Shown here in pieces: positions 4,597 through 17,870 of a DNA stretch of 25,109 bases. The translations under genes and the position numbers were made by a program. The DNA is from Nitrospinae bacterium RIFCSPLOWO2_12_FULL_45_22 (lineage in GTDB: Bacteria; 2-12-FULL-45-22): contig MHDQ01000157.1 of NCBI GenBank assembly GCA_001803565.1, forward strand, positions 1 to 25,109, read 5' to 3'. The notes below the pieces were generated by a model. That model ran no database searches. It was not told where the DNA came from and saw nothing but the letters and a program-made list of their open reading frames with translations. Every line of letters begins with the position of its first letter. The first letter of the stretch is position 1.

Positions 4597-5397
4597 TTAA
4601 GTTGTTTCTTTTTTCACCCGGTCCTGCACATAGCGGGAGCGGACCAGGGACCATTGGGAACTCATACGGACAAAATATTGCATCACCCCTCTAGCCTTAG
4701 GATAAATAGTGAAGGGATAGATCCGGTTAGGGTCAATATTATCTACCGCAAATACCCCGATGCGTTGCACAGATAAATAATCCTGAAGCCGGGCAATCCA
4801 GCGCTCCTGGAGCCTTAAGGGGATACCCAAACTCTCCTGGAAGGCAGGTATCACAATAGCATAATCGTGAGTACTACCTTTCTTCCTGCGTAATTCAACC
4901 AATCTTTTAGCCCTCTCTTCCGCCTTTTCATCACATTTGACCTCCAGGTTAACAAGAAAACCCTTTCCTTCCTGCTCAAAATAAAGGTCTGCATCAGTGC
5001 TTTCTCCTGGCGAATAACCCTTTTCTTGCAGGAGGTGGGTGATAGCCATCTTAATATAATCCCTTGCCTCTTGTTCATCAGTGAAAGTACCCTGGGAACG
5101 AGTAGGGAGCAGATTTAGTTTGAGGGGTGCGGCAGGTGGAGGTGCGGGCCTCTTTTCCTTTTCCATTCTCCCTTCACAATAAAACAGATCGGAGTGCTCG
5201 ATCTCTTTATCATCAACAAATTTAACCCTGAGCAATAGTTTGATCCCCCCGGGGTAGTGCTGCTTTTCCAAAATATCCATTCCCTTTACTATAAAATTCT
5301 CAGCTAAGGGTAGTGTGATGAAGATTCCTTTTTGGACAAAGCTTTTATTAATGTCTCGAACAGTTACCCTTTTATCGGCATCTTCAACTGTTGTCAT
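4597..5397 (-). CDS. Unknown protein with PD-(D/E)XK-like core, last gene of the CODH/Fwd cluster
   Basis: I do not recognise this 266-aa protein. Residues 1-75 look like a beta-rich domain, followed by a proline-rich linker (RPAPPPAAPLK, 83-93). The C-terminal part has TDADLYFEQEGKGFLVNLEVK (about 134-154), giving D137 ... E152-V-K154, the spacing of a PD-(D/E)XK nuclease-type core. A basic helix and the strand HDYAIVIP (177-184) follow. The segment 127-190 resembles residues 37-106 of the unknown 181-aa protein encoded at 7467-8012, so the two may be distant paralogues flanking the Fwd genes. It starts 25 bases after the Fe-S protein gene, with GGAGG 11 bases before the ATG. A role in the CO2-fixing system is suggested only by position. 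Confidence 0.7.
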   Translation of the reverse strand: MTTVEDADKRVTVRDINKSFVQKGIFITLPLAENFIVKGMDILEKQHYPGGIKLLLRVKFVDDKEIEHSDLFYCEGRMEKEKRPAPPPAAPLKLNLLPTRSQGTFTDEQEARDYIKMAITHLLQEKGYSPGESTDADLYFEQEGKGFLVNLEVKCDEKAEERAKRLVELRRKKGSTHDYAIVIPAFQESLGIPLRLQERWIARLQDYLSVQRIGVFAVDNIDPNRIYPFTIYPKARGVMQYFVRMSSQWSLVRSRYVQDRVKKETT

Positions 5398-5422: not shown

Positions 5423-5905
5423 CTATCGGACCAATTCCAGGGCCCCAAAGGGACACCTCATCGCACATGCCCTGCAGTATTCTGGTGGGTCAGCCTTTCT
5501 CTTGCAACGGTATGGATTAACCACATGAATAATACCATCAATTACCTGAAGAACTGACACGCTTTCAGTAAAGGCGGGCATTTCACCTCTGGGCCGGACG
5601 CGGCTCCTTCTCCCCAGGCTGCAAACCATAATACAGTCACCGCATCCCACACATTTTTCTTGCTTAATAAGGTGGCCACTTTCTGCTATATCTGCTTCCT
5701 CTAGCTCTTCGCCAAAATATTCCTTCAGCAGTTCCATAGAACTGCTAAACTCTTCTTTTTGTAAATCCGGACAGTCCGCCAGGGTCTTTTCTCGGCTGAT
5801 GAGTTCAAAGGCAAAGGCCAAACAGGTCTCACAACCACATGCCTTACAGTCTGTACACGGGAGCAATTGATATATTTGTAGAGGATTAATTCTCTCCTGA
5901 GTCAT
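5423..5905 (-). CDS. Iron-sulfur protein: CdhE-type Fe-S domain plus two 4Fe-4S ferredoxin motifs
   Basis: This is a 160-aa electron-transfer protein. The N-terminal domain INPLQIYQLLPCTDCKACGCETC has C17, C20, C25, C28 and C45 (ADCP). It matches the small 4Fe-4S domain that begins the corrinoid protein subunit CdhE/AcsC and several Rnf/RsxB-type proteins. The C-terminal part holds C85-x2-C-x2-C-x3-C95 and C134-x9-C-x2-C-x3-C151-P, two ferredoxin clusters. The start ATG overlaps the TGA stop of fwdD as ATGA, so it is translationally coupled to FwdB/FwdD and is the likely electron donor subunit for them, in the place FwdF/FwdG hold in methanogens. It lacks the corrinoid and TIM-barrel domains of CdhE, so it is not a CFeSP subunit. 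Confidence 0.8.
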   Translation of the reverse strand: MTQERINPLQIYQLLPCTDCKACGCETCLAFAFELISREKTLADCPDLQKEEFSSSMELLKEYFGEELEEADIAESGHLIKQEKCVGCGDCIMVCSLGRRSRVRPRGEMPAFTESVSVLQVIDGIIHVVNPYRCKRKADPPEYCRACAMRCPFGALELVR

Positions 5906-6243
5906 GCTTCCACCACTTCTGCTATGACTTCTATTCGTTTAAAATTAGGTAATTGTGCCTTTACGGGATCATATTCCGTCAATTTATTGATATAAGAACT
6001 CACTGGCACGAAACCAACCCCTGGGGGGCAGTTGGCATCTGCCTTTACCTTCATTACTATGGCACCCATAGAATCACTAAGCCTGATCATATCACCTTCC
6101 GATATAGCCAGTGTCTCTAAATCAGTTGGTGCCATACTTATCTGGCTTGACAGCTCCTGGTAATTAGCTTCACTACCCTCTGTTTGCCTTATTGCCCATT
6201 GGTAAGCATCCCGGTAAGTGACAATCACCAGTTTGATTTTCAT
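5902..6243 (-). CDS. fwdD: Formylmethanofuran dehydrogenase subunit D-like molybdopterin-binding protein
   Basis: This 113-aa protein is made of the molybdopterin-dinucleotide-binding beta barrel that forms the separate FwdD subunit (the C-terminal domain in formate dehydrogenases). Visible features are an N-terminal MKIKLVIVTYRDAYQWAIRQ, the central NYQELSSQISMAPTDLETLAISEGDMIRLSDSMG, and VKADANCPPGVGFVPVSSYIN. FwdD with FwdB holds the W- or Mo-bis-pyranopterin cofactor. The gene overlaps both neighbours by 4 bases (ATGA at 6240-6243 and 5902-5905), typical of subunits made in equal amounts. Length is normal for FwdD/FmdD (about 110-130 aa). Confidence 0.88.
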   Translation of the reverse strand: MKIKLVIVTYRDAYQWAIRQTEGSEANYQELSSQISMAPTDLETLAISEGDMIRLSDSMGAIVMKVKADANCPPGVGFVPVSSYINKLTEYDPVKAQLPNFKRIEVIAEVVEA

Positions 6244-7460
6244 ACTCCCTCCAGCAGCCGGCTAATAATTTCTTCATCGCTAGGACGATCGGTCTCTTTT
6301 ATAGGACTTAAGGTCACCTCAGTCCCATCCATACGCACTACTCTCCCCCCAGCTTCTATGCCCGAGATAGCGCCCCCGAATACTACGGTAGAATGCATAC
6401 TCGTGGGGGTTATATATGGGTCAAGAGTTATCAGTGATATCCCCCGGTTCAAATTTTTTGCTAAGGAAGCAGGTAAGCTGGAGTATGGGTCTGTTCCTAC
6501 AATCAGGATACAATCAGCCTCCTGGTTGCGTACCTGTTCTAAGAAAGAAAACTGAGGACCATGAGATATGCCATTAGCAAAAGATATTTTGTTAACATGG
6601 CCGGTCTGCTGATATAATAAATGGTTCAAACCCCTCATATTAGTATGGCAGGCCATAGGAATGACTGCCAGGCCTATACCTAGAATGTTCTTTATGGTCT
6701 CAATCAGTTGCTGGAAGAGAGAAAAATCTCCATCTAAAGCATAGGTTAACCCTAAACCCACGAATATAATCGGAAACTGGGACTTTTTTAGGAGCTCCAC
6801 GAAGGCCCGGGCATCTTCTCTTCCTGAGTCCTCTTTTATGACCGTCAAAATGGAGATTATAAAATCTCTATCCTCACCAGGCAACAGTCTAAAGGCATGT
6901 CTACAGCGCCGGCTAAGCTCGGTATCCCTTACATCAACACAACTAAGCCCGGCGGGTTTAGCCCGCTCAAAGGGATAATAAGCAAACCGAGATATGTGTC
7001 TTGGGTGAGAGTGGTAAGGATTGGAACCCCAATAGACGAGCAAATCAGCCTCTTTTAGCTGGGGAAAAGAGCAAGAGGGTAAAGTTCCCGTAAGGATATT
7101 CTCTACTACCGTGCCCTGACAGAAAGAGGAGCAGTCATCTATTGTGGCTCCCAGGGTACGGGAAAGTTCAATAGCCCTGGCCTGGGCTTCCAGGGTAGAA
7201 TTATCCAGGCCAAAGATAAGGGGTTTTTTTGCCTGTCGGAGCAATTGGGTGGCGGTATCAAGGGCTTCTGTTAAGTCTCCTCTCTCTCCCTTTACCAGGC
7301 AGGGTGGATTACGTCTTTCGTTTATATTATGGGCATAAATAAAAGCTGCCCCTTTCCTGCAGGCATTTTCTACCCGGGTGATAACATCTCCTTCCTGCTC
7401 AACTCCAATATCATCACATAGACAGCTACAACCGGTACAAACAAGATTTTTATAGGACAT
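6240..7460 (-). CDS. fwdB: Formylmethanofuran dehydrogenase subunit B-like Mo/W oxidoreductase
   Basis: This 406-aa catalytic subunit belongs to the molybdopterin oxidoreductase family. The N-terminal 4Fe-4S site is C8-x2-C11-x3-C15 ... C34 (an extra C13 lies inside). The metal-binding residue is C114 in SSFCQG; it is a plain cysteine, not a TGA codon. YWGSNPYHSHPRH and VGTDPYSSLP are family motifs. In methanogens FwdBD reduces CO2 to formate at this site and FwdA condenses formate with methanofuran. No FwdA or FwdC is present in this window, so in this bacterium the pair may serve as a formate dehydrogenase feeding the methyl branch. The start is 6 bases after the stop of the unknown 181-aa gene. 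Confidence 0.9.
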   Translation of the reverse strand: MSYKNLVCTGCSCLCDDIGVEQEGDVITRVENACRKGAAFIYAHNINERRNPPCLVKGERGDLTEALDTATQLLRQAKKPLIFGLDNSTLEAQARAIELSRTLGATIDDCSSFCQGTVVENILTGTLPSCSFPQLKEADLLVYWGSNPYHSHPRHISRFAYYPFERAKPAGLSCVDVRDTELSRRCRHAFRLLPGEDRDFIISILTVIKEDSGREDARAFVELLKKSQFPIIFVGLGLTYALDGDFSLFQQLIETIKNILGIGLAVIPMACHTNMRGLNHLLYQQTGHVNKISFANGISHGPQFSFLEQVRNQEADCILIVGTDPYSSLPASLAKNLNRGISLITLDPYITPTSMHSTVVFGGAISGIEAGGRVVRMDGTEVTLSPIKETDRPSDEEIISRLLEGV

Positions 7461-7466
7461 AGCACC

Positions 7467-8012
7467 TTAATATTCTTCCTCTTCCCAAAGCTCCTTGGAA
7501 AGCTGCATAGCCAAAACACCATCCAGGGATTGCTTTCCTAATGCAAAATACTCTTTGCATGTCTTATCTAAAGGTTCACCTACCAGACACCAGACATATT
7601 CTTCATCTGGGTTAGCAAACCAAACCATAAACTTGTTTCTCTTGATCTCAAAATACTTCCAACCTTTCTCGGTCCGAAAGAATTCCAACATCAAGAATTC
7701 GTTAACCGGCGGTACTACAATCGTATAGTCAATCTTATCCCCCCGGACTGATCTGATAGCGGCTAACTTTGTTAGCCCTTCCAGGGCCACATCAAAGTGT
7801 TGACACCCTATCCCGACAATCTCGTAAGTCTTATCGCCCTCGACCCTTTTGGCATGAAAATCTGGTTTAGCAAAACCGATATAGGTTTCTGGAAGGATTT
7901 CATAACCAACATCCTGTAAGAATTGCTTGGTCCAACCCACTATTTCTTCCACCGGGAAATACCATTCCCTAAAGTCCCCTTCTTTAACCCTATCAGGCCT
8001 ATCCTTTGCCAT
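7467..8012 (-). CDS. Unknown 181-aa protein between cdhB and fwdB
   Basis: No family is recognised. It is acidic at both ends, ending ELWEEEEY. The core GFAKPDFHAKRVEGDKTYEIVGIG (about 46-69) has PD (50-51) and E64 in an arrangement like a PD-(D/E)XK fold, but the lysine two residues after the glutamate is absent, so a nuclease function is unlikely. The following helix and strand DYTIVVPPVNEF (95-106) resemble the same segment of the 266-aa protein at 4597-5397 (HDYAIVIPAFQES). The gene ends 6 bases before fwdB and so is most likely co-transcribed and perhaps co-translated with it. Start ATG 8012 has AGGGG upstream. Function in the CODH/Fwd system is inferred from position only. Confidence 0.75.
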   Translation of the reverse strand: MAKDRPDRVKEGDFREWYFPVEEIVGWTKQFLQDVGYEILPETYIGFAKPDFHAKRVEGDKTYEIVGIGCQHFDVALEGLTKLAAIRSVRGDKIDYTIVVPPVNEFLMLEFFRTEKGWKYFEIKRNKFMVWFANPDEEYVWCLVGEPLDKTCKEYFALGKQSLDGVLAMQLSKELWEEEEY

Positions 8013-8179: not shown

Positions 8180-8647
8180 TTATAACGCTTTTATCAACTG
8201 TTCAAGGTTTTGTTGATACTGTTTTAATGAAGCATCGCCTAAAGAGTAATTAGCTTCCTTTATATACACATTACCTAAGGCAACAGTCTCAGCACCCTTG
8301 ACTCCCGAAGTTAGCCCCCGCGCAACTTTGGGACTATAGCCTAAAAATATAAGCAATTCCGGCTTCTCAGTCGTGATGGGTTCTTTCCATTCTGGTCCTC
8401 GGATAAAATCAACTATTTCGGCAGCATACTTTTTTGCTACCTTTTCCACTCCCCGCTCTTTCAAGCCCTTGGCGGTATTGGCCGTAGCTGCTACCGGCAA
8501 TTTTAGCTTCTTAGCGATCTCAGCGGCATAATCCAGTAATGACTTACCATCGAAATTGAGTTCATTACACAACGCCCCGGTCAGGAGTAAGGCCCTCTTT
8601 TTGCTTTTAAGGCAGGTAGCCAATTCAGACGGTCGTTTAGCGCTCAT
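8180..8647 (-). CDS. cdhB: CO dehydrogenase/acetyl-CoA synthase epsilon subunit
   Basis: This 155-aa protein matches the archaeal ACDS epsilon subunit (CdhB). Its DHS-like Rossmann fold shows KKRALLLTGALCNE, KKLKLPVAATANTAKGL, GVEKVAKKYAAEIVDFI and PELLIFLGYSPKVARGL. CdhB binds CdhA and is thought to assist electron transfer, possibly through FAD/FMN-type binding; it has no metal cluster of its own. RBS GGAGG is 4 bases before the ATG. It lies 137 bases after cdhA, matching the usual cdhA-cdhB order. Acetogens with AcsA-type CODH lack this subunit, so its presence marks the complex as archaeal type. Confidence 0.9.
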   Translation of the reverse strand: MSAKRPSELATCLKSKKRALLLTGALCNELNFDGKSLLDYAAEIAKKLKLPVAATANTAKGLKERGVEKVAKKYAAEIVDFIRGPEWKEPITTEKPELLIFLGYSPKVARGLTSGVKGAETVALGNVYIKEANYSLGDASLKQYQQNLEQLIKAL

Positions 8648-8784: not shown

Positions 8785-11313
8785 TCAGCTCTTCTTCTCC
8801 TTGACTCCTATCTCATAAGAAGTCTTATAGTTCCTGATCTCTGGATCGGGGAACATCCTGGGAACTCTGGTGGGATAGACCCCTCCCATACAACTAAACT
8901 CATTCTGCATGGTCTCCATATCTACCAGTCGTCCATCGGGATGCTTAGCCCGCTTTAAGTTTAGCCGCTCTACTTCCCAGCCATGCTTGTCTGCTAGCTC
9001 CCTAAGCATCTTGGCCTTATAACGTACCGGGAGTTCCCATGAGGAACGGACAAAGAGAGGCCAATCATCTGGCCACTCACCAAAGGCTGCCAGAGAAAAC
9101 TCTACATAGGTCTCCAACCCAATTAAGCGAAAATCCCTAATAGCTACTGGCCGCTGGCACATGATGGTTACAGCTGTAACCGCCTCTTCGCGGGTCTCTA
9201 CCGGGATAATCATATGCTTAGGTGCTGGTTCAACGGGTCGCTTTTTCCTGGTCCAGCTATCGTAATACCACCACCGCTTCCAGTCCCATTTATTTCCGGG
9301 CAAAAAGCGATGCCAGTCAAAGGCTGACTCTGGACCAACTACTACTGGGCAACCACCCCTGGCCCAGGCTGCTACAATAGGATACATCCTATCTGGCAGC
9401 GCACCCCACACCAACAAAGGAGGTGAGACAAGGTTACCATATATATCCGCCGTCTCAGCAAAGTTACCATAATGAGAAGCGCCTGCACCCGTCCGGGGCC
9501 ATTTCATAGCCTGATCCAAAATATGAACACAGGCAGCACAATCTCCAGTGTTGATAAGATTCCTTAGATTAGCCTCGGCGCCAAACTCGTCAAAGATATA
9601 TTTCTTGGTCTTTTCATTAAAGTGACGGGCTACCTCTCCAGCGGCACAGCCAGCGACAAAGGTAATAAAATTACGCGCGGTCAATTCATAAGCTATCCAG
9701 CCAAGGTCTTCTTCATGCTTGGCATCACCGCACCCTAAAAGGTGACAAATACCTGGAGTATTACCCCACATGGAGCTAAAGGCCCAGGAGGAGGTTTCTA
9801 CCCTTGGTAAAGGCCCCCGACCCGGCCGGAGCTTAAACTTATCCCCCGGTGCTCGTTTCTCCATGGAGGCTACGATTAAGTCCAACAACGGGATATTTTC
9901 TGGGCAGATTTTGACACAGGCCCCACATCCAAAACACCCCTTCTCTACTTCCGCCAGGGCCTTAATACCCTCCTTAGCCACCTGCTGGACTGCCTTACTC
10001 AACAGAAGGCTATTGGGGCAGTTACTGAAGCAAAGATCACAATCTTCCCGGCATTTCTTGGCCTCGGCCTTGGCCTTCTCTTCAGATAGCCGATAATCTC
10101 CTTTCCGTTTGACTTGCTGGAGAACCTTGAGGGCTACCTCCGCTGCCTTCTCCGGCAACCTTATCCAGGCCCCTGGAGCACCAGCCACTAAATCCTTCAC
10201 AATATCATCCACAAAGCTATCAGTCCGATCCGGCAACCCGATATTCTTATCCCGGCTGACCCATATAACCCGGGTCCCTACCCGTTTGGTATCCTCCAGA
10301 ATATCCAGATTCATACAAGAACTGCCCCCTACCAACACATCAGATATACCGTAGCGTAATATCTTCCTGGCCTTGGTCATAGGGGCCAATGGGCGGACCC
10401 TCTCATAAAAACGGGCCAGATCATCTCCTGCTGGTCCAATACCGCATACCTCAACCTTTTCGGTCAGCCCTTTCTCCTTCAGTTGATTAGCTACCAGGTA
10501 AGCCAGGAGGAAGGTGTCCCCCATAAAAGTAATCACTGGCTTTCCGGGCTCTACATTCCCCAGACCGCCTACTACGTTTACCTCTGGCCAGTCAATCATC
10601 TCTGATACCTCATGGTCAGAGGCGTTGGTCAGGCCAAAAAGGCTCATCTTTATTAACTCGATAACATCTTTTCCGATCATGAGCATGGAGCCGGCATGAA
10701 AAACCATCCCCTCCAGCTCAATGGCATCGGTACCAGTAAAGCTAGCAGAGGAGAGTTTAACTAGTTGGGCTTCTGCATAAGCCAGGGCCCTATCCAAATC
10801 AGCCAGGTTCTGTCCACCCATGGGTATGCAGGTAAAAAGGCCAATGTGGCTTAGGTCTGAGGCATCATGATGCGCACCCCAGGAAACCTCTTTCTCTCTA
10901 CCGAACACCTTAATAGCATAGTCCAATAGCTCTCGCGAATGGACCATCTGGGTCGAACAACCCCGACATGCCTTGCGGAGACTGAGGCGGGCCTGGTACC
11001 CCTCGAATTCTAATCCACAGACTCCTTTACCAGAGCTGAGGTTACATGGCCCTAAGGGGCAATCGGTACAGGTCTCTACGGTATTGCAATATAAGGGGGT
11101 ATACCTATCTAAAAGGTGACTATCCCACTCAGAAACATCAGCCTGATCCGTAAAAGGGAATATCCGCGTATCAAACTGTTGGAATCGGTTCTCCATCCAA
11201 TCATTCTCAACTGCCCAGAGGACTATATCCTCTACCCCCCGAATATCCCGACAGACCTTAGTAATATCTACTTCACTACTACCCAGAACAGTCTTTGTCT
11301 TTTTATCTCCCAT
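8785..11313 (-). CDS. cdhA: CO dehydrogenase/acetyl-CoA synthase alpha subunit (Ni-Fe CO dehydrogenase, archaeal type)
   Basis: This 842-aa protein interconverts CO2 and CO at a Ni-Fe-S C-cluster. B- and D-cluster cysteines are visible at C76, C82, C85, C90 and C99 (CTDCPLGPCN...GVCG), with KACRGCS near 116-119. AHHDASDLSH (147-156) carries the histidines of the proton/C-cluster region, C333 (GGSSCMN) is a C-cluster candidate, and GCAAGE and GDCAACVH follow. Unlike AcsA it carries two inserted 4Fe-4S ferredoxin motifs, C421-C432 and C460-C470, the mark of archaeal CdhA. RBS AGGAGG is 6-7 bases before the ATG. The gene stops at a TGA, showing TGA is a normal stop here. All cluster ligands I can see are cysteine codons, in contrast to cdhC. 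Confidence 0.95.
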   Translation of the reverse strand: MGDKKTKTVLGSSEVDITKVCRDIRGVEDIVLWAVENDWMENRFQQFDTRIFPFTDQADVSEWDSHLLDRYTPLYCNTVETCTDCPLGPCNLSSGKGVCGLEFEGYQARLSLRKACRGCSTQMVHSRELLDYAIKVFGREKEVSWGAHHDASDLSHIGLFTCIPMGGQNLADLDRALAYAEAQLVKLSSASFTGTDAIELEGMVFHAGSMLMIGKDVIELIKMSLFGLTNASDHEVSEMIDWPEVNVVGGLGNVEPGKPVITFMGDTFLLAYLVANQLKEKGLTEKVEVCGIGPAGDDLARFYERVRPLAPMTKARKILRYGISDVLVGGSSCMNLDILEDTKRVGTRVIWVSRDKNIGLPDRTDSFVDDIVKDLVAGAPGAWIRLPEKAAEVALKVLQQVKRKGDYRLSEEKAKAEAKKCREDCDLCFSNCPNSLLLSKAVQQVAKEGIKALAEVEKGCFGCGACVKICPENIPLLDLIVASMEKRAPGDKFKLRPGRGPLPRVETSSWAFSSMWGNTPGICHLLGCGDAKHEEDLGWIAYELTARNFITFVAGCAAGEVARHFNEKTKKYIFDEFGAEANLRNLINTGDCAACVHILDQAMKWPRTGAGASHYGNFAETADIYGNLVSPPLLVWGALPDRMYPIVAAWARGGCPVVVGPESAFDWHRFLPGNKWDWKRWWYYDSWTRKKRPVEPAPKHMIIPVETREEAVTAVTIMCQRPVAIRDFRLIGLETYVEFSLAAFGEWPDDWPLFVRSSWELPVRYKAKMLRELADKHGWEVERLNLKRAKHPDGRLVDMETMQNEFSCMGGVYPTRVPRMFPDPEIRNYKTSYEIGVKEKKS

Positions 11314-11874: not shown

Positions 11875-14160
11875 TCATGATGAAGCAGCGGTAAACCTCT
11901 CTTCCAGGAGGGCCGTGGTCATGCCTTCCGGCCCAATAAAATAGATTCTACCCTTCCCTATTCTAGCTATCCTCCTCATTAACTCTGGGTCAGTTGATTC
12001 CTCATTGATACAAACACAAGAGATAGTTATACCTTTTTTTGCTGCCATAATTGCCTGCCGCAAGGCATATCTTTGGGGGGAGGGATGGGGTGCAGTTGCA
12101 TCACCATCAGAGATAAGGATCATCTGTTGACTGGCACGACCCCGGCGATGGCGACCGAATAACTGCGTAGCCTTCAAGATACCAAAGCCAATATTGGTAA
12201 AGGCATTTTCATGCAACTCCAGGTCTATTACTCGACGGCTCAACCTCTGAGGACTACCAGTGATATCCACCACTACATCAGCGAGGTTAGAAAAACCTAT
12301 TACCCCCACTCGGTCACCATATTGGGCAGCCGCTAACGAAAGGGCAATAGCACTCTCCTTGGCATGCCATAATTTCTCCAACTGCCGCATGGTCCCTGAT
12401 AAATCAACCACCAGAATGAAATCAATCTTGGCCCGGATATCTTTGGTGGTGACCATGATATCGTCTTTGGTCACCTCCTGTCTTCGATTTCTGATAGTCT
12501 CCCGGATCGTATCTTTGAAAGATACGTCTCGGTAGCGGTCCCCAAACCGAAAGCGTCTGGTGCCAACCTCCCGCCCTTCACCGGTACTTAGTTTCTTGCC
12601 GGTACTATGCTTACCATAACCATAAAGATAGCTGGCTTCTACCGTAGGGCTCAATCGCTCCAGGAGGAAGGTAACCCCGCGTCTACTGAGCTCCCAACCG
12701 GTGCTACCCCTCTCCAGTATCTTTTCCCGTTCCAGGTAGCTGATAGTTTCCTTAAGGGCAGCGGCTTCCATTTCCTGCTTCAACTTGGCTATCCGGGCAT
12801 CCCTCTTGCGCACCTCTTCAATCTCATACAGTAACTCATCCGTAATGAGGTCTCCTCCAAATCGCTCTGGGTAAAGCTCCCGGATACGGACCCTCATCTC
12901 CCTTACCAGTTGTGCCAGCTTAGATTCCGGGAATCGTTCTATCCTCTTCAAGAGTAGATCAAAGGCCCCGTACTTAAGAGGTTGTCTAAACTTATCTTCC
13001 CGCACAATCTCTTCCACCAGGGCAAGCATATCATCTTTGGAAAAGCTGATCTTTTCCTCCTCTACCAAAACACCTAAAGCCTTATCCAGTACCTCCTCAA
13101 TAATCTGATCTCTCTTGCCCGGGTTATCAGAATAGGGAGCCAATTGAAGCCGGTGAGGAAGAGTACAATAAGCCCCTGCCCGGATGACCTTGTCCTCATC
13201 TCCGTAATCTATTTCCTGGAGAGAGGATACTAATTCGCCATACCGGAGCATCCCCCGGGTACTTACACCCCGTTCTACTTCACTGTGAGTTCTGGTATCC
13301 CTGGTTATATCTATAGACTTATCAATGGTAACCTCTGATACCGGCACTTTATCCGGATATATCCGCTCTAGGTTGGATACTACCAACTGCCTCTCGTCCG
13401 TCCGATCCTCAACATAGTTCAGATAAATAGTATCAAAACATTCCAGTACTCCTAGGGGCAGAGTCTCTAATACCCGTTGGCTACCGGTAGCTATCACCAG
13501 GATGTCTAGCGCTATCCTCTCTTCATAAGCGCCAATGGTAATATTTCCACTCTCCAGGGCGAATAGGAGGGTATTCAATACCCTCTCTGGCATCCGGTCA
13601 ATCATATCAACCAGAAGGATGCCACGATTAGCCCGAAGGAGTTTACCAGGCATAAAGCTTTGCAAAGAATGGATACCATGGATTAAAGCGGCCTCGGGGT
13701 CAAAGGCGCCAATAAGGTCTTCAGGAACCAGATCCCCTCCGCCCTGTATCCTTTTCACACGCCCTACCCCCGGTAAAGTCTGTTTTTTATGACCATTCTC
13801 TTGCACCCTAGCGTCTAAGCACCAGGGGCAGGAAGGGTTTTGCGGTGAGCAGTTTAAAGGACAACCTTCAACTATTTCTATATCATCCAGAATAAGGCTA
13901 ATATTATTGGCTAAGGCTGTTTTACCACAGCCCGGGGGGCCAAGAATAAGTAAATGATGCCCACTAGAGAGGCTACTAAGGAATGCCTCTTTCACTGATT
14001 CCGGCATTTGGAATTGGTGAAACAGACGATTTCTTCCCTCCTCACATCCATAGATTAAATTATTAAGAAGTTCATCCCTAAGCAAAATATCCTCCGCAAA
14101 AAAGGGTTTATAAGCTAACCAAGAATTATAGGCGGCGTCATTGGTCAATGGCAAATGCAA
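11875..14160 (-). CDS. Fused MoxR-type AAA ATPase and VWA-domain protein, likely metallocentre assembly factor
   Basis: This is a 761-aa protein. The N-terminal AAA domain has Walker A GPPGCGKT (74-81). A Cys4 insert follows at C100-x3-C104-x6-C111-x2-C114, and the Walker B strand ILLVDM (181-186). The usual Walker B glutamate is methionine, so ATP hydrolysis may be impaired. A helical middle (about 350-500) leads to a VWA domain from about 578, with MIDAS residues DLSGT (586-590), T655 and D685 (ISDGDAT), as in ChlD. The neighbour MoxR protein at 16830-17870 has the same Cys4 insert and an intact Walker B. MoxR/VWA pairs insert or remodel metal centres in other enzymes (CoxD/CoxE, CbbQ/CbbO, NorQ/NorD). 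Start is uncertain: TTG at 14160 lacks an RBS; an internal TTG (residue 26) has GGAGG before it. Confidence 0.85.
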   Translation of the reverse strand: MHLPLTNDAAYNSWLAYKPFFAEDILLRDELLNNLIYGCEEGRNRLFHQFQMPESVKEAFLSSLSSGHHLLILGPPGCGKTALANNISLILDDIEIVEGCPLNCSPQNPSCPWCLDARVQENGHKKQTLPGVGRVKRIQGGGDLVPEDLIGAFDPEAALIHGIHSLQSFMPGKLLRANRGILLVDMIDRMPERVLNTLLFALESGNITIGAYEERIALDILVIATGSQRVLETLPLGVLECFDTIYLNYVEDRTDERQLVVSNLERIYPDKVPVSEVTIDKSIDITRDTRTHSEVERGVSTRGMLRYGELVSSLQEIDYGDEDKVIRAGAYCTLPHRLQLAPYSDNPGKRDQIIEEVLDKALGVLVEEEKISFSKDDMLALVEEIVREDKFRQPLKYGAFDLLLKRIERFPESKLAQLVREMRVRIRELYPERFGGDLITDELLYEIEEVRKRDARIAKLKQEMEAAALKETISYLEREKILERGSTGWELSRRGVTFLLERLSPTVEASYLYGYGKHSTGKKLSTGEGREVGTRRFRFGDRYRDVSFKDTIRETIRNRRQEVTKDDIMVTTKDIRAKIDFILVVDLSGTMRQLEKLWHAKESAIALSLAAAQYGDRVGVIGFSNLADVVVDITGSPQRLSRRVIDLELHENAFTNIGFGILKATQLFGRHRRGRASQQMILISDGDATAPHPSPQRYALRQAIMAAKKGITISCVCINEESTDPELMRRIARIGKGRIYFIGPEGMTTALLEERFTAASS

Positions 14161-14483: not shown

Positions 14484-15887
14484 TTATTTGGGAATTTCCC
14501 TGGTCTCATCTGGCCAGTCGTGCCCAGGTAAAGGGATCTTTACGGGGGCTGGTTTACCATCCTTCCAACGCTTCTCTACCACCGGGTGTTTTTTTTCCCG
14601 GAGGAAATTCTCTAAGTCCTTAGGAGTGATACAATCCTCCTCGGTAGCGATCTTATCGTAGACTTCTTCGGGAATGGCATCGGCAATCTCTACCTTCAGG
14701 TCTTTGGGCATCCACACTATCCGGTTCCAACCACCATCTCCCTGGAGGAACTTGGGTGCCTTCGTGCCATATATAGATATCCCTTTAAAGCCATGATTCT
14801 GTACCCCTCCGCTCATTAATCCCGCAATCTTAGAGAAGGGTAATCCGATGGGGGTTTGCCCCATATAGCGCCTTATTGCAATTCCTATCCCATCAACCTG
14901 AGGGATATAGAAGCTTACCGCCTCGAATCACCCTCAGTTAGTGGTGACATATTTGATGCTACTATGCAGATGAAAGATCTTGTGCCTATGGTCTGATCTC
15001 TCATAAATGGCATCATCTACCCCTGTGAACCGACCTGCTATGGGATCAATGGTCTCCCCTTTAGGGAGTTCAAAGATATAGCCATGGGGGTCTATCGCAT
15101 GAATGGCCTTGCAGGTATAAAAGCTTAGAACCCCACAGTAGGGGACGATTGCTGGGGTGATGATACAGGCATGGTTGGGGGCAATCATCTTGCAGAGGGT
15201 GCAGCCATAGAACAGGTCTACATCCTCATCTGCAATAGCCGCATGCTTGGCCATCAGGGCCTCCCATTTCGGCTTAGTCTCTTCCAATATTGACTCTATA
15301 GTCTTCACCCCACCGATCTCGGGAGTACCCAATACCCATTTTACTTCTACCGCCTCAACAATCGGGGCTGAGGTAAGGACACTTGCCCTTATAGACTGGG
15401 ACAGCTTTTTAAAACTCAGCCTGGGGGCTACTTCCTTACTTATCCTTGTCCAGATGGTATCCCGGGCGCCGATCATACCGACACCTTCCATAAACATCAA
15501 CCCCATAAACATACCCCGGGCGGCAAACTCCTCATGATCCTCTGTTAGCTCCGGTCCCCAGAGCTTGGCATGCAAAGAGAAGGGAAGAGAAGTTTCCGGT
15601 GGTATCTCATCCAGTTCCGGGCCAATTACCTCTACCCGGCCATCAACTATCTCATTCGGATCGTTAACTACCTCAGCATAGAGAAAGCTCTTATAATTAT
15701 GCTTAGGGCCGCCCAGTTCCGCATGCCAATAGCCTTTTCGGATTTCTCCGATATACCTGGGGCCAATCCCTACATCCTCCAGTCCATCCCACAATTTATC
15801 CAAGTCTGTCTCTAGCTGGTAAACTTTCCCTGGCGGCAACTTTGTCTTGTACCAGGGCTTAAGCTCGGTTTTCACTTCCGTAGCCAT
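14484..15887 (-). CDS. cdhC: Acetyl-CoA synthase beta subunit CdhC with two in-frame TGA codons (probable Sec-Gly-Sec)
   Basis: Read through both TGAs, the product is 467 aa, normal for archaeal-type CdhC, which lacks the N-terminal CODH-binding domain of Moorella AcsB. The enzyme makes acetyl-CoA from CO, a methyl group and CoA at the Ni-Ni-[4Fe-4S] A-cluster. Cluster cysteines are C229-x2-C232-x8-C241-x9-C251, the same spacing as Moorella C506, C509, C518 and C528. The frame reaches KYVTTN and meets TGA-GGG-TGA (14936-14928), then continues FEAVSFYIPQVDGIGI and on to the true C-terminus (SGGVQNHGFKGISIYGTKAP, GGWNRIVWMPKDLKVE). The TGAs are residues 318 and 320; 251 to 318 equals Moorella 528 to 595, so they replace the conserved C-G-C that binds distal Ni. 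RBS AGGAGG is 9 bases before the ATG. Selenocysteine is inferred, not proven. Confidence 0.9.
14886..14907 (-). promoter_or_regulatory. Candidate bacterial SECIS hairpin in cdhC
   Basis: On the mRNA, UAUCCC-UCA (14907-14899) pairs with UGA-U-GGGAUA (14895-14886): nine base pairs, one bulged U, and a three-base apical loop GGU (14898-14896). The loop begins 29 bases after the second UGA and 35 after the first. Bacterial SECIS elements have a short upper stem with G in the first loop positions, often a bulged U, within roughly 16-37 bases of the UGA; this fits. No folding program was run. A competing hairpin uses the same bases (see findings). Confidence 0.55.
14928..14936 (-). other. TGA-GGG-TGA: two recoded codons at the A-cluster Cys-Gly-Cys motif
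   Basis: On the minus strand the codons are AAC-TGA-GGG-TGA-TTC. Family members read N/S-C-G-C-F here. Each TGA differs from TGC/TGT by one base. The matching cysteines in Moorella ACS (595 and 597) hold the distal nickel through two thiolates and backbone amides, and both thiolates bridge to the proximal nickel. Confidence 0.85.
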
Positions 15888-16036: not shown

Positions 16037-16828
16037 TTAACGAGTGGCTCGCTCGCTGATCTTTTCACAAACCTGCACCACGGCTATAGAAGCGGGAGAG
16101 TCCTCTGGTAGTTCAATGATAGGCTTACCTAAGGCATCAGCCAGGGCTATCTGGGGATCATATGGGACATAAGCCGTTATTTCAAGGCCATTTTCCTGTA
16201 CCATACGTTCTAGCCCGGGCCTGGTTTCATCGGTAACCTTGTTTGCTATCAACATAACCTCAGAAAAATTGACCACTAATTCTTTAGCCAGATCCTTCAC
16301 CCTCTTAGCGGTCAAAAGTCCATTCCAGGTGGCATCACTAACCGCTATCATCAAGTCAACATCTCGGGTAGTACGACGGCTAAGATGCTCCAGTCCAGCC
16401 TCACAATCAATCACAGTAAAGTCATAACTATTAGCCTTGGCATCTATTACCTGGCGCAGGATATTATTAACCGGGCAGTAACACCCTTCCCCTTCTGGAC
16501 GCCCCATAACGAGGAGATCAATATTGTTATCCCCTTCTTCGACTATCTCGTGCAAAGCCGTTTGAAAAGCCCCTCCTTTATTAGCCGCCTCTGGGCTACG
16601 GGCCGGGGCATGCATTATGGTCTCCCGGATATCACCCACACTCTTTCTCACCGTCATACCCAGAGCATGAGGGAGATTAGAGTCGGGATCGGCATCAATA
16701 GCCAATACATATCCTTTCCTGGACAAACACCTAATCAATAGAGCGGATAAGCCAGTTTTACCAACTCCACCTTTTCCAGAAACAGCTATAGTAAATCCCT
16801 TATTAACCAAGCTACCAGAAAACTCCAT
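16037..16828 (-). CDS. cooC: CooC-type nickel-insertion ATPase for CODH/ACS
   Basis: This is a 263-aa MinD/ParA-like P-loop ATPase. The deviant Walker A is SGKGGVGKT (17-25) with the signature lysine K19. DADPDSNLPHALG follows at 46-57, typical of CooC. C116-Y-C118 (GCYCPVNN) is the CxC pair that binds Ni or Zn at the dimer interface. VIDCEAGLEHLSRRTTRDVD is also diagnostic. CooC/AcsF proteins load nickel into CODH or ACS using ATP. The ATG at 16828 lies 1 base after the stop of the moxR-like gene, with its GGAGG inside the end of that gene, so the two are coupled. The 149-base gap to cdhC holds no gene. Confidence 0.93.
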   Translation of the reverse strand: MEFSGSLVNKGFTIAVSGKGGVGKTGLSALLIRCLSRKGYVLAIDADPDSNLPHALGMTVRKSVGDIRETIMHAPARSPEAANKGGAFQTALHEIVEEGDNNIDLLVMGRPEGEGCYCPVNNILRQVIDAKANSYDFTVIDCEAGLEHLSRRTTRDVDLMIAVSDATWNGLLTAKRVKDLAKELVVNFSEVMLIANKVTDETRPGLERMVQENGLEITAYVPYDPQIALADALGKPIIELPEDSPASIAVVQVCEKISERATR

Positions 16829-16829
16829 A

Positions 16830-17870
16830 CTAGTTCGCCTCCGGCAATAATCCCTTCACCATCTCCTCAATAAGACTTATGGGATCATCATAATACTTTG
16901 ACTCAGGAGAAGGTTTTATCCTACTCCCCAGAGCAGATATAGCCATTTTTCTAATACCTTCTACCTCAGCCTTTTTGCTTCCATTCAGTAAGGCAAGGGT
17001 CTGGACTTTTTCATAGAGAGATAGGCCGGCCCTAACGCTCGCTCCTTGATCAAGCTCCTTACCCCAGGGTTCTTCCCTGGTAGCCCTCACTAGTTTAACA
17101 ATAGCATCCACAATCTTTCCCGGGAGTTCCACCCCATCAAATTTTAGGCCAAATTTCATCAATATGTCTCGCTCTCGTTCTGGTGTCTCGGGATAGCCCA
17201 TCTTAATCACATCAAACCGATCCAGGAGTACATCGGAAAGCTCTTCTACGCCGGCATGTTCCCTTGGGTTCATGGTAGCAATCATGATAAAATTTGCTGG
17301 ATAATCAACATCATACGGACCAATGGTAGCGCTCCCCTCTTCCAGTACCTGGAGTAAGGCATTCTGTAACTTTTCCGGTACCCGGTTCAACTCATCAAAG
17401 AACACTACCCCTCGATTACCTTTGAGTAGTTTTCCTGGGGTAAAGGCCCGATAATCCTGGGGACCATACTTGAATGCCTGGGTAGGATCAATGTCGCCCA
17501 GGAGATCTTCGGCCGTCAGGTCTGGAGACCCCTGGATCCGGACAAACCTCTTTACACCTGGCACTTCCTCACCCTCTATCTTCTCCCCTTTAGTTAGTTT
17601 CAACCTACACATAGGGCAAACCGGGTTCCCCGGCTCGCAGTGATAAAGGCAGCCCTTTACAGACATCAATGCGGGTAAGGTTGATGCCACATGTTTCGTA
17701 AGGGTAGTCTTGCCGATACCCGGTGGCCCTTCTATTAAAATATGATGGCCGGCCAGGATAGAGGCCAAAATTTTCTCCTTGGCTTCCTCCTGACCTACAA
17801 TAATATCTAATGGGTCCTTCTTCTTCTGAACCGCACTAAGAATAGCCTCCTTCATTCCTTCAATCAGCAT
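16830..17870 (-). CDS. MoxR-family AAA ATPase with Cys4 insertion
   Basis: This 346-aa AAA+ ATPase has Walker A GPPGIGKT (48-55), Walker B VVFFDELNR (155-163), sensor-1 ATMNP (198-202) and the arginine finger in LLDRFD (216-220). All catalytic residues are present. Between Walker A and B lies a Cys4 insert, C74-x3-C78-x6-C85-x2-C88, matching the insert of the MoxR-VWA fusion at 11875-14160 in spacing and in the words N-P-x-C-P-x-C. The protein is close to bacterial magnesium-chelatase-I/MoxR proteins. It is coupled to cooC and follows the small 67-aa gene. I infer that it works with the VWA protein as a two-part assembly machine for the CODH/ACS metal sites. RBS GAGGAG is 4-5 bases before the ATG. 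Confidence 0.88.
   Translation of the reverse strand: MLIEGMKEAILSAVQKKKDPLDIIVGQEEAKEKILASILAGHHILIEGPPGIGKTTLTKHVASTLPALMSVKGCLYHCEPGNPVCPMCRLKLTKGEKIEGEEVPGVKRFVRIQGSPDLTAEDLLGDIDPTQAFKYGPQDYRAFTPGKLLKGNRGVVFFDELNRVPEKLQNALLQVLEEGSATIGPYDVDYPANFIMIATMNPREHAGVEELSDVLLDRFDVIKMGYPETPERERDILMKFGLKFDGVELPGKIVDAIVKLVRATREEPWGKELDQGASVRAGLSLYEKVQTLALLNGSKKAEVEGIRKMAISALGSRIKPSPESKYYDDPISLIEEMVKGLLPEAN

Follow-up and report, generated by a model that had tools for sequence, protein, structure and literature searches.

Predicted selenocysteine at both nickel-bridging positions of an acetyl-CoA synthase in a divergent CODH/ACS-like complex

The 25,109-nucleotide contig MHDQ01000157.1 of Nitrospinae bacterium RIFCSPLOWO2_12_FULL_45_22, referred to here in its full length as the window, carries a cdhC-like gene for the A-cluster subunit of acetyl-CoA synthase (ACS) with two TGA codons in its frame. 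There is good reason for confidence that the gene encodes the ACS/CdhC subunit of a divergent complex resembling carbon monoxide dehydrogenase (CODH)/ACS, and that both of its nickel-bridging cysteines would be selenocysteine (Sec). The original prediction had read both TGAs as Sec at these two positions, and this reading is now strongly supported by the Sec machinery, by conservation, by a hairpin resembling a selenocysteine insertion sequence (SECIS), and by independent recurrence of the codon pair. The features discussed below are located in Table 1.

Read on the minus strand, 15887 down to 14484, the gene has exactly two in-frame TGA codons, U318 and U320, one codon apart in an otherwise intact cdhC frame, as was first described for this gene. 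Translation table 11 splits the frame into open reading frames (ORFs) of 317 and 126 amino acids. The possibility that these represent separate subunits was rejected, because conservation covers the residues from the TGA to the next ATG (FEAVSFYIPQVDG...) and constraint extends over the entire 3′ part. Protein-level constraint on the 3′ part is at least as strong as that on the 5′ part; nonsynonymous divergence (pN) beyond the TGAs, with the hairpin left out, was 0.01–0.24 and not above the 5′ value, synonymous sites being near saturation in most pairs.

Both family scores and structure identify the product as an ACS. It passes the NCBIfam cdhC model (TIGR00316) with 388 bits against a cut-off of 356, both ACS domains of Pfam are present, and Methanosarcina CdhC (9c0s_E) scores 280 bits against it. 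An AlphaFold model built from 13 relatives (predicted local distance difference test score 85.5) found its best structural match in truncated Moorella ACS (3git_A; Z 44.6, 2.2 Å, 409 residues), and its high-scoring matches were exclusively ACS. In the Moorella enzyme, a [4Fe-4S] cluster is held by Cys506, Cys509, Cys518, and Cys528, of which Cys509 also forms a bridge to the proximal nickel; the two nickels are bridged by Cys595 and Cys597. Alignment to solved ACS chains upheld the proposed correspondence of Cys229, Cys232, Cys241, and Cys251 to the four cluster ligands, and it placed the U-G-U of the window protein on the Cys-Gly-Cys that is invariant in Moorella and Carboxydothermus ACS and Methanosarcina CdhC. 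Equivalents of the four cysteines are invariant across the Sec, Cys, anaerobic methanotrophic archaeal (ANME), canonical CdhC, and AcsB rows of the alignment. The window protein thus shares with archaeal CdhC (the acetyl-CoA decarbonylase/synthase beta subunit; TIGR00316, PDB 9c0s) the ACS fold, the four [4Fe-4S] cysteines, and an X-G-X loop, at a sequence identity of about 37% to the PDB chain. It differs in its Sec-Gly-Sec in place of Cys-Gly-Cys, its N-terminal extension, its isoleucine at the position of Moorella F512, and its operon, which has MoxR/VWA and FwdBD-like genes and an altered CdhA. Bacterial AcsB (Moorella; PDB 1oao, 3git) is comparable in its C-terminal part, A-cluster ligands, and fold, but lacks the Sec that the window protein would have at both nickel-bridging positions. 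The F512 alcove position is Ile235 in the window (15183-15185, minus strand); it is isoleucine in the Sec clade described below and its nearest Cys relatives, leucine in the Chloroflexi Cys copies, and phenylalanine in genome G001, in ANME, and in canonical enzymes.

The same codon pair is not confined to the window. A scan of GTDB genome contigs, together with whole-genome searches, found TGA-GGN-TGA at the A-cluster site in seven genomes: the window genome (G000), G001, Chloroflexi NC_groundwater_684 (G002), Deltaproteobacteria DeMMO5_3 (G003), Syntrophaceae CG2_30_49_12 (G004), G405, and G692. All other relatives whose sequence was inspected have Cys-Gly-Cys, and none was mixed at the two sites, TGA and Cys alternating always as a pair. 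In-frame UGA therefore falls on a conserved cysteine for which UGA and Cys homologues both exist, a pattern that marks selenoproteins. Across 398 genomes of the G003 phylum, the TGA pair occurred only in the U-G-U gene among more than 100 ACS matches; one other TGA was reported, in a match reaching query residue 455, beyond the usual match end. Methanophagales and other ANME-like archaea (L033, L034, L035) carry Cys-type divergent CdhC proteins 46% identical to that of the window.

The means to insert Sec are available as well. The original prediction could be checked against the window genome, which is 85% complete and has selA, selB, tRNA-Sec, and selD. Its tRNA-Sec (75 bits) has a UCA anticodon and G73, as do those of G001, G003, and G004. 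SelA was found above its cut-off in G000 through G004 and adjoins SelB in G000, SelB being present in G000 and G003. In six of the seven Sec genomes (G000, G001, G003, G004, G405, and G692), SelD itself contains an in-frame TGA, within the motif GxGUxxK, which is GGGUACK in G000. Among Cys-type genomes, G005 yielded neither SelA nor an above-cut-off SelD, while G006 and G007 possess tRNA-Sec and SelA, so that possession of the machinery is not by itself a predictor of Sec in the enzyme. A second SelB-like gene in the window genome (G000:C215; L119:66-815, minus strand) comprises the N-terminal GTPase part only, at 250 amino acids, and the full selB is on contig C264.

Downstream of the TGA pair lies a predicted bacterial SECIS hairpin, which starts 21 nt past TGA2. 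The published bacterial model specifies a loop of 3–9 nt with G in its first two positions, a distance of 16–37 nt from the UGA, and a minimum free energy of −7.5 or lower (PMC13188914). The window hairpin has a GGU loop 29 nt past TGA2 and 35 nt past TGA1, and constrained local folds in the seven Sec genes ranged from −8.0 to −11.0. A core of ATCCCTCAGGTTGATGGGAT is identical across six genomes. In five Sec genes, 17 of 186 invariant degenerate columns use a single codon throughout, and seven of these 17 are in the hairpin stretch; the six-codon identical run there is the longest in the gene, was equalled in only 3 of 20,000 shuffles, and has no comparable counterpart in three sets of Cys genes. 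The stretch was also the best of 304 windows compared (92% versus a background of 43.5%), and its codons oppose the trend in third-position GC content (0.29 versus 0.75 in G002). At this site the main Sec clade and its revertant encode Gln (CAG), where Glu or Asp is encoded elsewhere, and for this reason the RNA signal seems to have changed the protein residue at the hairpin. The tip of the hairpin resembles that of the E. coli fdhF element. An Rfam search of the gene returned no SECIS family match.

The history of these genes was examined in a tree built with the A-cluster columns masked. One clade unites six of the Sec genes with a single Cys gene (L023:6001-7446), and the gene of G001 falls far outside it. 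A single origin of all seven U-G-U genes was rejected by the approximately unbiased test (p-AU 3e-5), a result qualified by the length of the G001 branch. The Cys gene within the clade reads TGT-GGG-TGT, has kept the hairpin, and shares its genome with a Sec copy. Read most simply, the tree requires that Cys gave way to Sec at both sites on at least two independent occasions and that both sites reverted once. Such independent replacement, of both residues or of neither, points to the two positions functioning as a unit.

The surrounding operon departs from a standard CODH/ACS. In relatives with flanks of sufficient length, cdhC is accompanied by CdhA, and the nearest relatives share MoxR-CooC-CdhC-VWA-CdhA-CdhB-u181 with FwdB, FwdD, and Fe-S genes, in variable order. 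The window CdhA and CdhB score far under their family cut-offs. With C-cluster ligand identities taken from PMC10502027, all aligned CdhA members, of Sec and Cys type, have GD (GT in G001) in place of the GHN histidine (CODH-II His261) and GPAG, GAAG, GSAG, or similar in place of the ICCT cysteine (CODH-II Cys295). These two are the ligands of the pendant iron of the C-cluster. The other four cysteines are kept except in G001, whose CdhA (L140:9779-12346, minus strand) has lost all six ligands, so that a complete set as in canonical CODH was not found in the partner subunit. The loss of these ligands makes the reaction uncertain, and a partner without the pendant-iron ligands argues that the complex probably makes no CO in the usual CODH way. 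As for CdhD and CdhE, only a CdhE-N-terminal-like Fe-S protein was seen in the window, the rest of the genome not having been searched. PADLOC returned generic AAA matches only for the MoxR/VWA genes, and the protein at 4597-5397 (minus strand) had no Pfam or NCBIfam match. The Sec protein is thus an ACS by fold and A-cluster within a divergent CODH/ACS-like complex, and its description in the original prediction as a central enzyme of carbon fixation is not supported as worded, given a CODH-type subunit without key C-cluster ligands and a second ACS in some genomes.

Table 1. Location of the cdhC-like gene, its key codons, the predicted hairpin, and the operon genes in the window
Feature	Coordinates	Strand	Basis
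cdhC-like gene (ACS/ACDS beta subunit), 467 aa, two in-frame TGA, TAA stop	14484..15887	-	Translation, family scores, structure model
TGA codon 318, Sec reading, Moorella Cys595 position	14934..14936	-	Alignment
TGA codon 320, Sec reading, Moorella Cys597 position	14928..14930	-	Alignment
Predicted bacterial SECIS hairpin TATCCC-TCA-[GGT]-TGA-T-GGGATA	14886..14907	-	Codon conservation and published bacterial model
Cys229, A-cluster ligand (Moorella 506)	15201..15203	-	Invariant
Cys232, A-cluster ligand, bridge to proximal Ni (Moorella 509)	15192..15194	-	Invariant
Cys241, A-cluster ligand (Moorella 518)	15165..15167	-	Invariant
Cys251, A-cluster ligand (Moorella 528)	15135..15137	-	Invariant
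MoxR-type AAA+ ATPase, cdhC operon	16830..17870	-	Domain match and neighbourhood
CooC/AcsF-like MinD-family ATPase, probable Ni insertion	16037..16828	-	Family score and neighbourhood
AAA+/VWA chelatase-like protein, cdhC operon	11875..14160	-	Domain match and neighbourhood
CdhA-like subunit; CODH-II His261 and Cys295 equivalents lost, Cys333/446/476/526 kept	8785..11313	-	Family score and alignment
CdhB-like (epsilon) subunit, divergent	8180..8647	-	47 bits vs cut-off 101
Conserved 181 aa operon protein, no Pfam/NCBIfam family	7467..8012	-	Neighbourhood
FwdB-like molybdopterin protein	6240..7460	-	TIGR03129, 302 bits vs cut-off 328
FwdD-like molybdopterin-binding protein	5902..6243	-	Family/domain match
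Fe-S protein, CdhE-N-terminal-like FeS domain, no corrinoid domain matched	5423..5905	-	Family/domain match

Several points weigh against the Sec reading. The hairpin energies are not distinctive against synonymous shuffles (z of −2.5 for the window and −0.7 to −1.4 for the others), and several Cys genes fold equally stably; free energy was therefore discarded as proof of a SECIS, and codon conservation was taken as the evidence instead. G001 has a different hairpin, with a UGGAU loop 31 nt past TGA2, for which no homologues exist as a test. G002 (1.4 Mb) has only a SelA fragment, with neither tRNA-Sec nor SelD found above cut-off, perhaps through incompleteness of the genome. The Sec genomes are draft assemblies, several of them labelled as metagenome-assembled genomes, and both Sec insertion and nickel binding are predictions, the latter made from ligand conservation. 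Draft status and in-frame stops could likewise speak for errors of assembly or of single bases, or for a pseudogene in decay. This is hardly credible in view of an identical codon pair in seven genomes, which is no chance recurrence, purifying selection on both sides of the TGAs, the lack of further stops, and an intact operon and ligand set. The in-frame TGA in cdhC might also reflect genome-wide reassignment to a sense codon, and this, too, can be all but set aside: TGA closes 7 of the 22 window genes, confirming its role there as an ordinary stop, the tRNA-Trp found is CCA, and in-frame TGA was seen only in cdhC and SelD.

A further explanation is that UGA is read as Cys by a selC*-type tRNA-Cys that carries an opal anticodon and depends on SelB* for delivery, a system known from some Desulfobacterales (Mukai et al. 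2017, reviewed in PMC7609411). Such tRNAs resemble tRNA-Sec and do occur in these lineages, in G004 (GCA, beside Cys-type cdhC), G003, and G006, and G000 has the second, short SelB-like gene. Every selC*-type copy found, however, has GCA, and no tRNA-Sec-like tRNA with both UCA and U73 was found in these incomplete genomes. All UCA tRNAs found (G000, G001, G003, and G004) have G73, the serine/Sec identity, and the genomes in question possess SelA and a Sec-type SelD; the Sec genomes thus differ from selC* systems in carrying canonical tRNA-Sec, with one genome having selC* tRNAs beside Cys-type paralogues. Cys insertion at UGA is accordingly very improbable. The last alternative accepts Sec and differs in the reaction only, holding the protein to be an ordinary Wood-Ljungdahl acetyl-CoA synthase/decarbonylase with Sec for Cys. 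It draws on the conserved A-cluster residues and ACS fold, on the equivalog score, and on the failure to find another ACS in G000 or G001, the former yielding a single cdhC/acsB at 85% completeness when a second intact copy was sought. Against it stand the partner CdhA without the pendant-iron His and Cys, the G001 CdhA without any of the six ligands, the isoleucine at the F512 position, and the second ACS of several genomes, incomplete as they are: a full canonical AcsB in G003, a 40% identical Cys CdhC in G405, and additional CdhC copies of 37–40% identity in Chloroflexi. An ordinary reaction is therefore considered unlikely, though far less so than the other alternatives.

The Cys-type genes of the Syntrophaceae genome G004 provide a further lead. 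On contig C14 (L023), two Cys-type cdhC genes are accompanied by YedF (TIGR03527, 221 bits) and by a LysR regulator associated with selenium (NF040786, 257 bits). Two tRNA-Sec-like tRNA-Cys genes (GCA) of the selC* type described in PMC7609411 (L023:5771-5869 and L023:12037-12134) each lie no more than about 150 nt upstream of a Cys-type cdhC, U73 being clear in the former. Other selC*-type tRNA-Cys genes (GCA, U73) adjoin selD in G003 (C47; L064:1501-1597) and lie just upstream of a SelB-like gene in the Chloroflexi genome G006 (C189; L062:342-436). The G004 genes have the look of a selenium-controlled reserve of Cys forms, an arrangement to which the Sec/Cys isoenzymes of Methanococcus are comparable. 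Because one L023 cdhC retains the SECIS hairpin, this genome may deliver Cys by way of SelB* or may operate a selenium switch.

Frame, codon pair, conservation, hairpin, machinery, and ACS fold are established from sequence; the mechanism that follows is a prediction. Taken as a selenoprotein, the window ACS would depend on SerRS, SelA, and SelD for Sec-tRNA-Sec(UCA), and SelB on the single downstream hairpin would deliver it at UGA 318 and UGA 320, so that one SECIS would serve both codons. To judge from ligand conservation, the selenolates would bind nickel: the Sec-Gly-Sec loop would hold the distal nickel in N2Se2 ligation, with two selenium bridges to the proximal nickel, and the Ni-Ni site would sit beside the [4Fe-4S] cluster on Cys229, Cys232, Cys241, and Cys251. 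CooC, perhaps also MoxR/VWA, may mature the Ni-Ni-[4Fe-4S] cluster. Most likely, acyl-CoA would be formed or cleaved at an organonickel centre. The [NiFeSe] hydrogenases offer a parallel, with Sec as a nickel ligand replacing a conserved cysteine and with Sec and Cys forms both in existence, but they have another fold and cluster and one Sec nickel ligand, where the window protein is predicted to have two on a Ni-Ni site. By analogy with them, selenium may make the ligands softer, alter the redox steps, and ease repair after oxidation.

No Sec-containing ACS was found in the open literature searched (subscription journals and preprints being outside reach), and the 119 prokaryotic selenoprotein families tabulated in 2026 (PMC13188914) include neither ACS nor a U-G-U pair, all of which is consistent with the original remark that no such enzyme was known to its author. 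The only related literature entry was HgcA, which is sometimes annotated as CdhE. Multi-Sec prokaryotic selenoproteins such as MbdU and the UxxU proteins (PMC13188914, Table 1) also have two Sec per polypeptide, but none listed is an ACS or has a U-G-U pair. Selenoproteins and ACS are both known, and it is their combination at a dinuclear nickel site that appears to be new; a single hairpin also appears to serve two UGAs one codon apart. A broader scenario may be offered tentatively, in which a CODH/ACS-derived family dropped CO production, kept the organonickel A-cluster, and at least twice upgraded both nickel-bridging thiolates to selenolates. The resulting bis-selenolate Ni-Ni-[4Fe-4S] cluster would carry out acyl or C-C chemistry distinct from standard acetyl-CoA synthesis. 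A selenium-dependent switch would also operate in one lineage or more, built from a hairpin-retaining Cys isoform, dedicated tRNA-Sec-like tRNA-Cys genes that closely precede the Cys isoforms, and the neighbouring YedF and selenium-associated LysR regulator. Two selenolates bridging two nickels would constitute a natural test of the role of the A-cluster bridging ligands, with the redox potential of the proximal nickel, its affinity for methyl and CO, tolerance of oxygen and oxidation, and lability of the proximal metal all at stake; and since a Sec paralogue and a closely related Cys one (L022 and L023) coexist in one genome, the two forms are directly comparable.
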